This document shows, piece by piece, positions 38,707 to 46,571 of a stretch of DNA of 64,000 nt. Every line of letters begins with the position of its first letter. The stretch's first letter is position 1. The DNA is from Cryomorphaceae bacterium 1068 (GTDB taxonomy: Bacteria > Bacteroidota > Bacteroidia > Flavobacteriales_D > Cryomorphaceae): positions 62,001-126,000 of the forward strand of contig JAPVXR010000003.1 in NCBI GenBank assembly GCA_027214385.1. The letters run 5' to 3'. The translations under genes and the position numbers were made by a program. The notes beneath the pieces are model-generated. The model was not told the DNA's origin. It was given only the letters and a program-made list of their open reading frames with translations, and made no database searches.

Positions 38707-39045
38707 GCCGGTTACTTTTGCTCCGCTCAGTCACCTGGAATTTCCTATTTTACAACAAGATGGTTTAAGGCCGTTGAGCGGAGCCGAAACGCCGGTTACT
38801 TCGACTCCGCTCAGTCACCTAGAATTTCCTATTTTCACAACAAGATGGTCTAAGGTCGTTGAGCGGAGCCGAAACGCCGGTTACTTCGGCTCCGCTCAAT
38901 CACCTGGAATTTCCTGTGGTCACAACATCATGATCCAAGGACATTGAGCGGAGCCGAAATGCCAGTTACTTCGGCTCCGCTCAGTCACCTAGAATTTCCT
39001 ATTTTCACAACAAGATGGTCTAAGGCCGCTGAGCGGAGCCGAAAC
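38707..39045. repeat. Four tandem ~85-bp repeats with inverted ends
   Basis: Units at 38707-38790, 38791-38875, 38876-38960 and 38961-39045 (84 or 85 bp each). Each begins GCCGGTTACTTCGGCTCCGC or close and ends GAGCGGAGCCGAAAC or close, so each unit carries inverted ends (TTCGGCTCCGCTCA / TGAGCGGAGCCGAA) about 45 bases apart. Two internal variants occur (one with ACAACAAGATGGT, one with ACAACATCATGAT). No protein coding is expected. Confidence 0.93.
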
Positions 39046-39086
39046 GCTGATCAGTTGAATTGAATCGCATCAATTAAAGCTTGGCT

Positions 39087-40880
39087 TTAACGCGCGATCA
39101 TAAATTTCTCGGTTACAACTTCGTTTTCTGTCGTCAAGAGGTAGAGGTAAACTCCGTTTGGCAAAGCTGAACCGTCATATTCAAAGCGGTAATCAGCATT
39201 TGGCTGAGCCAAACCTGCAAAGATGACATCAACCAAGCGACCGCTCATATCGAAGACTTCAAGGGTAGCATAACCTTCTTCCACCACGGTGAAATTTACG
39301 AATGCCTGACCTTCAGAAGGATTCGGGGATGATGAAATCATCGGGGGGACCCCAGGAGTCGTAAAAAACTGAAACGAACTAAAAGGACCGGCTATAATGG
39401 GTTCGACAGAACAGCCGCAGCGAACTCGCCACTTGTATTCGGTATTCGGTTCCAAAAGAAAATCAGGTATAACGGCACTGTCAACATCATCGCCAAAAAG
39501 TGTTGTTCTTTTTATCCCTTCTCCATCTGCAGTCAACAATTGCAATTGGCAAGCAATTTGGCCAGGCACAGGATCCCATTCTACCAAATAAGAATCTCCC
39601 AGAAAGGTTGTGTTTAAGCTCGATTCGTCCACTGCGGGAAAAGGGTCAATACATTCGTCGGTTGTATTTCGGTAAAGTTTAGCTATGTAACCAATGATCA
39701 CATTTGCCCTACCTACTATTAGAACATCCTCATCACCGTCTTCATCTACATCCGAAAAGGCGGCAGCACTTTGACTTACATCAGTGAAAGGGTCATCCGG
39801 AACTAGCGTAAAATTTCCTCCTTCATTGGAATAGAGACTCGTCCGACCTGAAAAGACCGAGGGTCGTCCCGTAATTAATACATCTTCATCACCGTCTCCG
39901 TCAACATCCGCGAAGTCAACAGAGCCCGAAATTCCTGGTGAGAACGGAGTACCAGTTACCAAAGTGAAGTTTCCGCCGTCATTTGTATAAAGACCCACAC
40001 TTCCTTGGCCCATAGAGTTTGAACCCGTAATCAAAACATCCTTATCTCCGTCTCCATCTATATCAGAGAATGCAGCAGAGCTATAGGAAACTGCCTCAAA
40101 GGGAGTGTCCTCTATCAGAGAAAAATTTCCTCCATCATTTGAATAGAGCTCGGCAACGGGGCTGAATGACTGATTTCGCCCCGTAATTAAAAGATCTTCA
40201 TCACCATCTCCATCTATGTCGGCAAAGGCAATGTCGCCATAACGAACACCGACGAAAGGCGTGTCCTCTATCAAATTGAAACTCCCTCCGTCATTTGTAT
40301 AGAGATTGGCCGATACGGTTCCCCCTGTTGTATTCGATCCTGTTATAAACAAGTCTTCATCCCCGTCTCCATCTACATCAGAAAAGGCAATTGAGCCGTC
40401 AATAACACCTGTGAATGGGGTATCTTCAATTAAATTAAAGGTGCCTCCATCATTTGAATAAAGTTTCGCTAAGGTTTGATCAGACGCATTTCCATTTCCT
40501 CCAGTAATCAGCAAGTCTTCATCTCCGTCTCCGTCTATATCTGAAAAGGCAAGAGTGCTGGCGTAAATTAGCTCAAATGGTGTGTTTTCTACAAGGGTGA
40601 ACGTCCCATCATCATTCGTGTAGAGTTTGGGAAACCCAGGTACAGGACCTTGCGGGGTAATTCCGAAATTCCCTGAAATCAAGACATCTTCATCCCCATC
40701 ACCATCTACATCAGAGAAAGCAATAGATGGGCTATCCTTTCCTATTTCATTAAAATCAGCGCCTTCTTCGGGTAAGACTTCTAGGAATGTAATTTGACTT
40801 TGGGCATTAAGCGTAAAGCACAAAATCATAATTCCGCTTAAAATAAAGTGGTATATAGTTTTTGGTAGTACTGGATTCAT
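39087..40880 (-). CDS. Surface FG-GAP/VCBS repeat protein with type IX sorting domain
   Basis: 597 residues with an N-terminal signal peptide (about 1-28). From about 48 to 410 it carries seven or eight repeats of AFSDVDGDGDEDVLITG type, the calcium-binding FG-GAP/VCBS blade of beta-propellers. A Cys-containing Fn3-like module follows (about 415-515; WDPVPGQIACQLQ, WRVRCGCSVEP) and then a C-terminal type IX sorting domain (PNPSEG near 525; ends EKFMIAR). It probably sits on the cell surface. Flanked on both sides by copies of the 85-bp repeat. Ligand unknown. Confidence 0.92.
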   Translation of the reverse strand: MNPVLPKTIYHFILSGIMILCFTLNAQSQITFLEVLPEEGADFNEIGKDSPSIAFSDVDGDGDEDVLISGNFGITPQGPVPGFPKLYTNDDGTFTLVENTPFELIYASTLAFSDIDGDGDEDLLITGGNGNASDQTLAKLYSNDGGTFNLIEDTPFTGVIDGSIAFSDVDGDGDEDLFITGSNTTGGTVSANLYTNDGGSFNLIEDTPFVGVRYGDIAFADIDGDGDEDLLITGRNQSFSPVAELYSNDGGNFSLIEDTPFEAVSYSSAAFSDIDGDGDKDVLITGSNSMGQGSVGLYTNDGGNFTLVTGTPFSPGISGSVDFADVDGDGDEDVLITGRPSVFSGRTSLYSNEGGNFTLVPDDPFTDVSQSAAAFSDVDEDGDEDVLIVGRANVIIGYIAKLYRNTTDECIDPFPAVDESSLNTTFLGDSYLVEWDPVPGQIACQLQLLTADGEGIKRTTLFGDDVDSAVIPDFLLEPNTEYKWRVRCGCSVEPIIAGPFSSFQFFTTPGVPPMISSSPNPSEGQAFVNFTVVEEGYATLEVFDMSGRLVDVIFAGLAQPNADYRFEYDGSALPNGVYLYLLTTENEVVTEKFMIAR

Positions 40881-41081: not shown

Positions 41082-41251
41082 GTCGGTTATTTCGGCTCCG
41101 CTCAATCACCTGGAATTTCCTGTGGTCACAACATCATGATCCAAGGACATTGAGCGGAGCCGAAATGCCGGTTACTTCGGCTCCGCTCAGTCACCTAGAA
41201 TTTCCTATTTTCACAACAAGATGGTCTAAGGCCGCTGAGCGGAGCCGAAAC
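41082..41251. repeat. Two tandem ~85-bp repeats, duplicate of 38876-39045
   Basis: Units 41082-41166 and 41167-41251 repeat, with only a few base differences, the last two units of the first cluster (same order of the two internal variants). The FG-GAP gene thus lies between two copies of a 170-bp block in direct orientation. Confidence 0.93.
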
Positions 41252-41607
41252 GCCGTATTTTAACACCATGAAAGGCTGGATGTATATTCTCCAATGCTGC
41301 GATGGAACGTACTACACAGGTAGCACGAATGATATAGACAAAAGAGTTCTTGAACACTCAAAGGGGTTTGGAGCAATCTATACCAAGAAAAGATTGCCTA
41401 TCGAATTGATCTACTTTGAAGAGTACAATCGAGTCGACCTTGCATTTCACAGGGAAAAACAAGTCCAAGGTTGGTCGCGGAAAAAGAAAGAAGCTCTTAT
41501 GGCAGGAGCCCCTGATCTGCTGCATGAGTTGGCGGTTTGTCAGAATTCAAGTTATTTTGGGGATAAGGGTGAATGAATCGGCGTTTCGGCTCCGCTCAAC
41601 GACCTTA
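41227..41607 (+). mobile_element. GIY-YIG gene enclosed by 29-bp inverted repeats (IS-like element)
   Basis: Left arm 41227-41255 (ending GAGCCGAAACGCCG) and right arm 41579-41607 (beginning CGGCGTTTCGGCTC) are inverted complements with 2 mismatches in 29. The GIY-YIG gene fills the space between them: 12 bases from left arm to ATG, 2 bases from stop to right arm. The arms are the ends of the 85-bp repeat family. This layout suggests a minimal transposon-like unit whose ends seeded the dispersed repeats; no known IS family is recognised. Confidence 0.55.
41268..41576 (+). CDS. GIY-YIG nuclease-domain protein
   Basis: 102-residue single-domain GIY-YIG protein of the UPF0213/YhbQ type. Tyr6 (MYILQC) and Tyr16-Thr17-Gly18 (the YIG position) are present, with the catalytic Arg26 in DIDKRVLEH and the metal-binding Glu63 in HREKQVQGW. 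It therefore looks catalytically complete. It is bounded at both ends by inverted repeats (see the element entry), which suggests that it acts on those ends or on recombination between them. Start at ATG 41268. Confidence 0.92.
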   Translation: MKGWMYILQCCDGTYYTGSTNDIDKRVLEHSKGFGAIYTKKRLPIELIYFEEYNRVDLAFHREKQVQGWSRKKKEALMAGAPDLLHELAVCQNSSYFGDKGE

Positions 41608-41800
41608 GATATTCGTAATTGAACAAACAATCTCGTTCTCCATTAGCAAGAGGTTTTAAGGCCATTGAGCGAAGCCGAAATGCCAGTTACTTCGGCTCCG
41701 CTCAATCACCTCAGTACTTCTTGTGATTTGAAAACCGATTGAAGGTCACCGAGCGCGGTCAGTGAGCGGAGCCGAACTGTAGCCGAGGTGCCGAAACGCC
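41579..41800. repeat. Diverged repeat units reaching into folP
   Basis: One unit spans 41579-41680: it starts with an inverted repeat end and finishes GAGCGAAGCCGAAA. A second starts near 41682 (CCAGTTACTTCGGCTCCGCT) and carries an end at 41763-41776 (TGAGCGGAGCCGAA) with a further CCGAAACGCC at 41791-41800. The outer part, 41746-41800, is translated as the C-terminus of folP. Confidence 0.8.
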
Positions 41801-42597
41801 AATTCAACGCACTCCCGCGCCTCCTTCACATCGTGCACCCTCAAAATGCTCGCTCCCTTTTGCAGCGCAACCATGTTCAATGCGGTAGTCCCATTCAGCG
41901 CTTCTTCAGCACTTGTACCCAGCGTTCTCCAGATCATTGATTTTCGTGAAACCCCTACCAATATGGGGCATCCGAGCATCTTGAATTCATCCAATCGGAG
42001 GAGCATTTCAAAATTGTGATCCACCGTTTTGGCAAACCCAAATCCTGGATCGATGATCACATCAGCCACTCCCTTTCTTCGAAGCACATCTAGTTTTTGA
42101 GAAAGCTCAAAAACGACTTCATTGACTACATCGGTATAGTTTGCCAGGGAGTTCATTGTTTTGGGAGTGCCGCGATTGTGCATCAGCACGTAGGGAACAC
42201 CAAGATCAGCGACCGTATCAAACATCTCCTGGTCGACTACTCCGCTGCCTACATCGTTGATGATAGCCACGCCCGCTTCTACTGCCTTTCGGGCAATCTC
42301 GGCTCTAAAGGTGTCAGCCGAAAGGATGGCCTCGGGAAACTTGTCTTTGATGGCTTTAATCCCGCCAATCAGGCGCTCCGTTTCTTGGGCTGCGGAAATA
42401 TCATCTGCACCTGGACGGGTGGAGTAGGCGCCCAAATCCAAAATATCTGCCCCTTGTATCAGCATCTCTTCGGCTTTCGCCAAAATGGATTCACGGCCCG
42501 ACACTCGGCTACCTGCATAGAAGGAATCATCTGTGAGGTTGAGGATTCCCATCGTTAACGGCTTGTTAAAAACTCGTATTTCCCCGTTGATCTTCAT
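41746..42597 (-). CDS. folP: Dihydropteroate synthase with repeat-derived C-terminus
   Basis: Joins 6-hydroxymethyl-dihydropterin diphosphate to 4-aminobenzoate in folate synthesis. TIM-barrel motifs are visible: MGILNLTDDSFY, LDLGAYSTRPGA, IDPGFGFAKT, GVSRKSMI, and HDVKEARECVEL. Start at ATG 42597; the frame extends to 42630 but residues before MKINGE do not fit the family. The last 17 codons (after ECVEL) and the stop are encoded by a copy of the dispersed GC-rich repeat, so the natural 3' end was replaced. Divergent from the DUF1599 gene. Confidence 0.93.
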   Translation of the reverse strand: MKINGEIRVFNKPLTMGILNLTDDSFYAGSRVSGRESILAKAEEMLIQGADILDLGAYSTRPGADDISAAQETERLIGGIKAIKDKFPEAILSADTFRAEIARKAVEAGVAIINDVGSGVVDQEMFDTVADLGVPYVLMHNRGTPKTMNSLANYTDVVNEVVFELSQKLDVLRRKGVADVIIDPGFGFAKTVDHNFEMLLRLDEFKMLGCPILVGVSRKSMIWRTLGTSAEEALNGTTALNMVALQKGASILRVHDVKEARECVELAFRHLGYSSAPLTDRAR

Positions 42598-42662
42598 AGT
42601 TTGGTCTTTCGAAAAACCGGTATCTTTCACGGCTGAAATCTATTTGTAATTAAGAGGTATAA

Positions 42663-43609: not shown

Positions 43610-45142
43610 ATGTCAACTAGCAACCGCGTATTGGGATTGTTTCTTTTGGCCGCAGGCCTTTTCCTCATTGTTTTGGGATTTGCCAATCCCGAAGCTGTAG
43701 ATGAGTTTAATGTGTATTGGATCGCGACCGTATTGGCACTCGTTCCGGGTATCTTGATCATGGCCAAGAAACCCGAAGCGGCAACATTTTTCGCTCGGAT
43801 CGTTGTAGGTTCTGTGTTCATCGTTTCGGGATTGATCAAAGCCAACGACACCGTCGGTTTCGGTATCAAACTCGAAGAGTACTTTGACGAAAATGCACTG
43901 GGAGCATTCTGGGCTATTTTCCACGATTACGCGCTGGCAATAGCCATTTTCGTTTCGGGAATTGAAGTCTTGTTGGGTCTCGCATTGCTCTTTGGCGCGG
44001 CCGCCCGCGTGGTGTCGTTTACCCTTTTGGGAATGACGCTGTTCTTCGGATGGCTCACCTATTTCACCGCCGAGTGCAACGATGCTCAAATGGCCGCCAT
44101 CTCAGCTGGTGAAGCTTTCGATCGTGTTTGCGTGACGGATTGCGGTTGCTTCGGAGATGCATTGAGAGGCTCCGTAGGGAGGTCGCTGACACCGTGGGAA
44201 TCATTCTACAAAGATTTGGGTCTTTTCTTCCTGACGCTCGTTGTGGTGATCAGAAACAGCTTCATCAAAGTCAATACGAAGAAAGAAGATCTGATCATCT
44301 TCCCTTTCTCCATTTTGATTGTCTTGGTCTTTGGCGGCTGGTTATTCGGATGGATGTTCCCAACTTATTTTACAGTGGTGTCTATCCTAATCTTTTATCT
44401 CCTGAAGGCGATGAAGTTGAAATCGTCAAAGTTGGAGTTCTTTCTGGGAATGGGTTTATCAGTCATCACTTACGCCTTTATTTCATACACATACAATCAC
44501 TTGCCCATAAAAGACTACCGTCCCTATGCCGAAGGCAAGAACATCAAAGACCAAATGAAATCGGCGACCGAATTGGGTGTGACACCCACCAAGTACGCCA
44601 ACGTTTACAAGCTGGAGAACTCCGAAACGGGTGAGACCATGGCGATGAACTCCGATGAATATTTGAAACAAGAAATCTGGAAGGATAAGTCCTGGAAGAT
44701 CGTCTACACAAGTCCCAACCCGATAGTGATCGAACGTGGCTACGAGCCGCCTATCGCGACATTCAATGTAATGGATGCTGAAGACTACGACATTGGCGAA
44801 GAGCTGCTCAACGATGAGAACTACAGCTTTATGGTAGTGCTTTACGATGTTGGGAAAGCCAAAACAGAGAACCTTGCGAAGCTCAATGAATTGGCACTAG
44901 CCGCTGAAGGAGCAGGCTACGACTTCTACGCGATGACTTCTTCTCCCTACGAGGAATACGAAGAACTACGTCACGAAAATTCACTGGCTTTTCCATTCCA
45001 TACGGGCGATGAGATCTTTTTGAAAACCATCATTCGCGCCAACCCGGGAATTCTCCTGATGAAAAACGGAGAGATCATCAAGAAGTGGCATGGGAATGAT
45101 ACGCCGAGTTTTGAAGAGGTGGAAGGTGTTTATCTTAAATGA
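43610..45142 (+). CDS. DoxX-like membrane protein with C-terminal thioredoxin-like domain (BT_3928 type)
   Basis: 510 residues. N-terminal DoxX/MauE-like membrane domain (about 6-330, nine or so helices) with a Cys-rich loop CVTDCGCFGDALRG (about 172-186), then a soluble thioredoxin-like domain (about 370-505) without a CxxC pair. This arrangement matches the BT_3928 family seen between DUF1599 and tpiA genes in Bacteroidota. Probably linked to redox or electron transport; true activity unknown. The two-hairpin repeat lies just upstream. Confidence 0.85.
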   Translation: MSTSNRVLGLFLLAAGLFLIVLGFANPEAVDEFNVYWIATVLALVPGILIMAKKPEAATFFARIVVGSVFIVSGLIKANDTVGFGIKLEEYFDENALGAFWAIFHDYALAIAIFVSGIEVLLGLALLFGAAARVVSFTLLGMTLFFGWLTYFTAECNDAQMAAISAGEAFDRVCVTDCGCFGDALRGSVGRSLTPWESFYKDLGLFFLTLVVVIRNSFIKVNTKKEDLIIFPFSILIVLVFGGWLFGWMFPTYFTVVSILIFYLLKAMKLKSSKLEFFLGMGLSVITYAFISYTYNHLPIKDYRPYAEGKNIKDQMKSATELGVTPTKYANVYKLENSETGETMAMNSDEYLKQEIWKDKSWKIVYTSPNPIVIERGYEPPIATFNVMDAEDYDIGEELLNDENYSFMVVLYDVGKAKTENLAKLNELALAAEGAGYDFYAMTSSPYEEYEELRHENSLAFPFHTGDEIFLKTIIRANPGILLMKNGEIIKKWHGNDTPSFEEVEGVYLK

Positions 45143-45196
45143 GGAATATCGGCTTTATCTGAAGCGATTAATTTTGGAAAGATTTGACGTATAATT

Positions 45197-45290
45197 GGTA
45201 GATAGTCGATAGTACATAGTACTCAGTATAAATCTTTGTTTTTTTGCTGATTACAACCGACCATCGACTAATGACCATCGACCATCTACA
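45197..45290. repeat. Short interspersed CATCGAC-type repeats
   Basis: The spacer before the permease gene holds several partial copies of GACCATCGAC and TAGTCGATAGTACA. Related words recur after tpiA (47704-47745). These degenerate repeats have no gene and no clear structure. Confidence 0.5.
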
Positions 45291-46571
45291 ATGACTAACT
45301 ACATCCTCAAAAAAATCGGTTACGGCCTTCTGGTTCTCTGGGGAGTAGTGACGCTAGTGTTCGCTATTTTCAGCATCAATCCAGGCGATCCCGCCGCGAT
45401 GCTGCTCGGACAGCGCGCCGATGAAGAGGCGATAGAGCGGGTGAGGCGAGAACTGGCCCTAGACCTGCCGTGGGGCAAGCAGTACGCGCTATACATGAAT
45501 GACATCAGTCCACTATCGCTGCACAATGAAGTGCCCGAGAGTCGTGTTTACCTCGATGAGTCGAAGTACAATTTTGTGCAGCTTGTCGATTTTGGCGAAA
45601 CGGTCTTGGTGCTCAAGTCACCTTACTTGCGGCGCTCGTACCAGTCCAAAAAGCAAGTGAGCGAGATCATCGCCGAGGCGCTACCCGGTACGGTGGTCTT
45701 GGCCGTAGGTGCCATCTTCTTCGCCTTGTTTTTCGGGATACTGCTGGGAGTCGTCACCGCAGTATACAAAGGCCGTTTTATCGACGGGTTCTCTCTATTC
45801 TCGGCGGTGTTGGGCATGAGTGCGCCTTCGTTTTTCAGTGCCATTATCATCTCGTGGATCGGTGGCTACCTCTGGTCGGTGCAGACTACCTTGCCCGCTA
45901 TTCCGATTGTTTTAGCCTTGATTGGTTTGGGAATTTCCTTGACTCGAAAACCGCGATCGTGGATCAAATCGGTGGAGTGGCTTATCAAAGGCGCACTTTT
46001 GGGTGTGGTCTTGTTGGTGGTCAATTCGCTTACGGTATTGCTCTTCGACTTTAATTTCCTCCTCTTTCGTGATGCTGCCTTAACGTTGCCTGGAACAGGA
46101 TTGGGTATGACGGGTTCCCTCTACGATGTAGACGTCTTTACGGGCGAGTATCTAGCCTTGGGCAATCTCATTTTACCGATGATCACTCTCGGAATTCGTC
46201 CGTTGGCCATTGTGGTGCAGCTTACGCGAAATGCGCTGCTGGAGGAGTTGTCGAAAGACTATACCCGTACCGCTCGTGCCAAGGGGCTTTCGCCCAATGC
46301 AGTGGTATTTAAGCACGCCTTACGAAACGCATTGAATCCCGTGGTGACGGCCGTATCGGGATGGTTTGCCTCCATGTTGGCAGGAGCGGTATTCGTCGAG
46401 TTTGTTTTCAACTGGAAAGGGCTTGGACTGCAAGTATTTCAATCCTTGCAAAATGATGACTTTCCCGTGGTGATGGGAAGTGTTTTGGTGATTGCGGCAA
46501 GTTTTGTGGTGATCAATATTTTTGTGGATATCATTTATGGACTCCTTGATCCCAGGGTGCGAATAGGCTAA
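45291..46571 (+). CDS. DppB/OppB-type ABC transporter permease with large insertions
   Basis: 426 residues. N-terminal segment with PGDPAAMLLG (about 31-40) and the EAA loop SKDYTRTARAKGLSPNAVVFKHA (about 320) are those of dipeptide/oligopeptide transporter permeases. Normal length is 305-340; here there are two insertions, a soluble stretch around residues 70-115 and an extra hydrophobic stretch around 195-250. No ABC ATPase, second permease or binding protein is nearby. The neighbourhood with tpiA is conserved in the phylum, so it may not be a classical importer. Confidence 0.9.
   Translation: MTNYILKKIGYGLLVLWGVVTLVFAIFSINPGDPAAMLLGQRADEEAIERVRRELALDLPWGKQYALYMNDISPLSLHNEVPESRVYLDESKYNFVQLVDFGETVLVLKSPYLRRSYQSKKQVSEIIAEALPGTVVLAVGAIFFALFFGILLGVVTAVYKGRFIDGFSLFSAVLGMSAPSFFSAIIISWIGGYLWSVQTTLPAIPIVLALIGLGISLTRKPRSWIKSVEWLIKGALLGVVLLVVNSLTVLLFDFNFLLFRDAALTLPGTGLGMTGSLYDVDVFTGEYLALGNLILPMITLGIRPLAIVVQLTRNALLEELSKDYTRTARAKGLSPNAVVFKHALRNALNPVVTAVSGWFASMLAGAVFVEFVFNWKGLGLQVFQSLQNDDFPVVMGSVLVIAASFVVINIFVDIIYGLLDPRVRIG

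Follow-up and report, generated by a model that had tools for sequence, protein, structure and literature searches.

A small GIY-YIG nuclease gene among hairpin-like repeats, with a C-terminal tail that predicts the repeat variant around it

Results

A GIY-YIG gene within an array of 85-bp repeat units

We analysed a stretch of 64,000 nucleotides from Cryomorphaceae bacterium 1068 (contig JAPVXR010000003.1, positions 62,001 to 126,000), hereafter the window. It encodes at 41268-41576, on the forward strand, a 102-aa protein whose only Pfam hit is GIY-YIG (E=2e-13). Residues Y6, Y16 and E63 are invariant in both alignments that we built, and R26 is invariant in one and at least 90% conserved in the other. 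The gene is bounded by two inverted arms of 31 nt (94% complementary) at 41225-41255 (reverse strand, core motif at 41236) and 41579-41609 (forward strand, core motif at 41585). An earlier note had described these as 29-bp inverted repeats lying 12 and 2 bases from the coding ends. That observation is confirmed: the distances are correct and the arms extend by 2 nt.

The arms are not ends unique to this gene, but the edges of neighbouring 85-bp repeat units, and the gene sits where an 11-base linker between two units would be. The repeats form two clusters, and the 85-bp period holds within each. The left one (38708-39047) has seven core motifs in alternating orientation (38775, 38800, 38860, 38885, 38945, 38970, 39030) plus a degenerate one. 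The other (41084-41780) comprises the units immediately upstream of the gene (41084-41255; 41091, 41151, 41176, 41236) and those downstream (41579-41780; 41585, 41666, 41691, 41763), which run to the 3' end of folP (41746-42630, reverse strand). Between the clusters lies a gene encoding an FG-GAP-like repeat protein (39087-40880, reverse strand). There are thus 15 copies of the core TTCGRCTNCGCTCA in the window, in alternating orientation. An 85-base unit folds as single-stranded DNA far better than shuffled sequences on either strand (z about -5.3).

The earlier note had called the repeats dispersed, which is wrong for this genome. Elsewhere in its 4.3 Mb there are 18 exact matches to the looser pattern TTCGRCNNNGCTCA, of which only about five have complementary arms, giving about 20 convincing copies in total. 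Four copies of TTCGGCTGCGCTCA occur in this genome in the same GTTCGGCTGCGCTCAC context (C1:85727, C19:45456, C26:5539 and C31:201, contig and position), and are perhaps a separate repeated element.

The repeats accompany the gene in relatives

Of eight genomes of the same family (this one included), seven have a homologue, and most of these loci sit among repeats of varied sequence. In 247 genomes of the class, 100 have a match at 1e-10 or better and about 25 carry the close subfamily (about 1e-29 or better). A scan of 84,980 species returned 80 named loci, mostly from Bacteroidota, with a few records labelled Ignavibacteriales, Cloacimonadota, Fibrobacter, Melainabacteria, Desulfoprunum and Gammaproteobacteria (these latter are MAGs and could be misbinned).

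In these loci, the motif TTCG[AG]N3-6CTCA occurs 4.98 times per kb within 300 bp of the gene and 0.113 times per kb more than 2 kb away (7.75 and 0.19 per kb in intergenic DNA alone). At least one copy lies within 300 bp of the gene in 69 of 76 assessable loci (91%), against 26 of 568 control ORFs (4.6%; Fisher p about 1e-62), although orthologues among the loci are not independent. We therefore rejected chance as the source of the inverted repeat. The earlier note had named absence of flanking repeats in most relatives, and abundance of repeats in genomes lacking the gene, as observations that would count against its interpretation; the first is not what we find.

The second holds in part. 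Two genomes, G024 and G045, carry 146 and 255 motifs and encode only UvrC-like or other long GIY-YIG proteins, with no stand-alone GIY-YIG gene. The repeats can thus persist, or perhaps spread, without it. Across the 247 genomes, however, motif density is higher where the close subfamily is present (medians of 4.2, 1.6 and 1.1 per Mb with the close subfamily, with wider relatives, and with neither; p=1e-7 for 4.2 against 1.1, not corrected for phylogeny), whereas a reversed-pattern control gave about 0.3-0.4. One could suppose that the repeats are non-autonomous elements moved by another enzyme, and that the gene lands among them because they are hot spots of insertion or recombination. G024 and G045 fit this view, but it does not explain why 91% of the loci carry the motif or why the enzyme predicts the repeat class on both sides (see below), and we consider it very unlikely.

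A constant core within covarying arms

The core of the repeat is constant, whereas the arms vary from copy to copy and remain complementary. In 180 distinct class-A arm pairs (classes defined below), the first three positions pair in 95, 91 and 89% of cases, against 56, 35 and 43% when partners are shuffled, and G-C, C-G, A-T and T-A pairs are all used. Classes B and C behave alike. Among imperfect class-A pairs in the listed counts, A-C mismatches outnumber G-T ones (23 to 5), which would fit folding of the TGAG...CGAA strand with G-T wobble, but this is suggestive only. A single motif is only a weak hairpin in isolation (z about 0); the strong fold comes from inverted pairs, such as those in Arenibacter and in G045 (where they show covarying dinucleotides), which resemble REPINs.

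Covarying stems would also be expected of RNA structures, such as terminators or mRNA-stabilising hairpins conserved for the expression of neighbouring genes, and copies do lie close to the stop codon of the gene (median 20 bases). Yet both orientations occur on either side of the gene in similar numbers, copies lie inside ORFs, and a search of Rfam gave only sub-threshold chance matches to microRNA and sRNA families. A regulatory association also leaves the match between enzyme and repeat unexplained, and this is the least likely of the alternatives.

The C-terminal tail predicts the core class

Cores fall into class A (TTCGRCTNYGCTCA), class B (TTCGRC[AG][AG]GCTCA) and class C (TTCGRGNNSCTCA). 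Across about 110 related loci, the C-terminal tail of the protein predicts the class that surrounds it: CxNx[ST] (CN) tails are associated with A in 57 of 58 loci, AYRD tails with C in 18 of 19, and NYxQ tails with B in 7 of 7. The window protein, with a CxNxS-type tail (VCQNSSYF) and class A cores, fits the rule. The rule holds on each side of the gene separately (p about 1e-12 to 1e-15). Genome-wide, class C cores are commoner in AYRD-tail genomes (7-17 copies) than in CN-tail genomes (0-5; p=0.002). The exception is G182, a CN-tail genome with 25 copies, which has two adjacent GIY-YIG genes (C1:1140650-1141338), one partial with class C repeats close by and the other with class A.

On a tree of the domain without the tail, core classes are scattered almost as if shuffled (26 changes for A against 27.5 when shuffled), as if tail and repeats were exchanged together. 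This tree is poorly resolved (5 starred branches of 105) and provides a single strictly independent pair, so that phylogenetic independence of the match could not be secured, and the tail classes were defined after looking at the data. Natural tail switches are found within one genus, Chryseobacterium (loci L106, L120, L124, L127, L137 and L138). In four other loci (L026, L147, L148 and L170) the protein reads through into the downstream repeat (GFGSAQPP, WLRLRS), which extends its C-terminus.

Repeats insert and change position

In a congener (G004), the neighbourhood is collinear with the window at about 74% identity. A decayed GIY-YIG gene with one repeat lies there between two conserved genes (locus L054, 14377-14838), about 4 kb from the window's position. 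It occupies the interval corresponding to window 45142-45291 (461 against 157 bases between the aligned blocks), where the window has neither gene nor repeat. Conversely, folP of G004 abuts another gene with no repeats, and the block that includes the FG-GAP-like gene is absent next to it. In the window, the repeat array supplies the last codons of folP (41746-41790) and changes its C-terminus relative to the G004 orthologue.

Repeats also sit in frame inside genes that we read from their translations as type I restriction-modification genes: hsdR of loci L174 (4785-4837) and L165, and hsdM of L165 (the L165 copies are at 2636 and 7215). The relative L107 has a shorter, repeat-free version, and all frames stay open. 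In L165, the GIY-YIG gene lies between these two genes. Most other apparent empty sites were point changes or array differences, and we rely only on the hsdM and hsdR cases and on the G004 comparison. No target-site duplication or precise excision was found. These results show that the repeats insert and move.

The gene itself is not highly mobile: in some genera (Arenibacter, Winogradskyella) it stays at one orthologous place. The dN/dS of the core is 0.05-0.08 in most orthologue pairs, so the protein is maintained by purifying selection. This could reflect a domesticated control system, in which the nuclease acts on its repeats to limit or steer DNA uptake and recombination, the repeats are kept as landmarks and spread passively by recombination or replication slippage, and the gene is flanked by them only because it is an ancestral nucleation point. 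A Neisseria homologue with the same association fits this view. However, the gene is patchy (about 25 of 247 genomes for the close subfamily), it decays in G004, and repeats insert into coding genes, which looks more like an element than a landmark. We regard this alternative as unlikely, although less so than the two discussed above.

Predicted structure and family

The AlphaFold model (pLDDT 89.5) is confident for residues 1-89 and disordered at the tail. The nearest solved structures are the UPF0213 proteins 1zg2 (E=1.7e-21 by profile search and 1.6e-6 by Foldseek) and 1ywl, followed by Slx1-Slx4, which cuts branched DNA. More distant stand-alone GIY-YIG genes in Neisseria, Sinorhizobium, Sphingobium, Planktothrix and Spirosoma are also bounded by palindromic repeats, of other sequences. 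In a Neisseria gonorrhoeae record (labelled as a plasmid but of 2.17 Mb, and looking like a chromosome filed as a plasmid), the homologue lies within a dense array of GTCATTCCC...GGGAAT palindromes.

Discussion

The pairing of enzyme and repeat is well supported. We suggest that the gene encodes a minimal Slx1/UPF0213-type nuclease that recognises, most likely as single-stranded or extruded DNA, the hairpin-forming repeats around it, a reading to which we give a probability of about 0.62. In this view, the conserved domain would cut, the variable tail would read the constant core of the hairpin, and the stem would need only to be paired. Cutting or nicking at these sites during replication, repair or DNA uptake would promote recombination and copying of the repeat, which would build local arrays, occasionally place a repeat (sometimes with the gene) at a new site, and maintain the match between enzyme and repeat. 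Our analysis shows the physical association, the covariation of the arms, the correspondence between tail and core, the insertion of repeats into genes, the change of position between congeners and the purifying selection on the enzyme. We infer, by contrast, that the enzyme cleaves the repeat, that the substrate is single-stranded or cruciform, and that cleavage causes the spread.

The earlier note had proposed that the endonuclease mobilises or spreads these ends much as RAYT enzymes do for REP sequences, and this interpretation is partly supported. The partnership is supported, because flanking repeats are the rule, repeats match the enzyme type and repeats insert into new sites. That the enzyme itself drives the spread is plausible but unproven and only weakly supported, since two repeat-rich genomes lack the gene and in this genome the repeats hardly spread beyond the locus. 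A bolder version remains tentative: a GIY-YIG nuclease would act as the mobiliser of REPIN-like hairpin elements, a second, non-HUH route by which bacteria spread palindromic repeats, with specificity residing in a short tail that is exchanged between otherwise similar enzymes together with the matching repeats.

How short palindromic repeats spread in genomes without RAYTs is an open question. Here enzyme and repeat can be paired by sequence alone, with a simple rule and natural tail switches, so that specificity and mobility are open to direct test. A family of small nucleases with readable target rules could also be useful as a single-strand DNA tool. In the literature searched, no paper was found that links GIY-YIG genes to REP-like repeats or prints these repeat sequences, and both the tail-coded specificity and the in-frame insertion appear new to us.

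The locus can be compared with several known systems. It does not fit GIY-YIG homing endonucleases, which have NUMOD or other DNA-binding domains and an intron or intein context, since the protein has a single domain and lies in an intergenic repeat array. It shares the fold and minimal architecture of UPF0213 and prokaryotic Slx1-like proteins; the survey that places the NMR structures 1ywl and 1zg2 in the Slx1 lineage (Dunin-Horkawicz 2006, PMC1564403) makes no mention of palindromes, and none of its passages on repeats or mobility that we examined links this family to DNA repeats. Rickettsia palindromic elements are also inserted in frame in protein genes, and no nuclease partner is known to us for them. 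As in RAYT/TnpA-REP systems with their REP and REPIN sequences (PMC2817692, PMC3116915, PMC8266576), the gene is flanked by the palindromes to which it is linked, the palindromes occur in inverted pairs, and each enzyme type has its own repeat type. The enzyme, however, is a GIY-YIG nuclease and not an HUH/Y1 transposase, and any transposition remains hypothetical.

The closest resemblance is to Ssn, the site-specific single-stranded GIY-YIG nucleases of Neisseria, which are reported to act on NTS repeats and to affect transformation (Chenal, Veyrier and colleagues, Nature Communications 2025). The Neisseria homologue of the wider family was found with a Bacteroidota relative of another subfamily (42% identity), not with the window protein itself. 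The repeat differs, with a TTCG[AG]N3-6CTCA core and variable covarying arms, and is present in far fewer copies in this genome than the hundreds per genome reported for Neisseria. The tail code, the in-frame insertions and the repeat doublets are described here. What is shared is a stand-alone protein of about 100 aa with a single GIY-YIG domain and its catalytic residues, encoded among copies of its own class of palindromic repeat.
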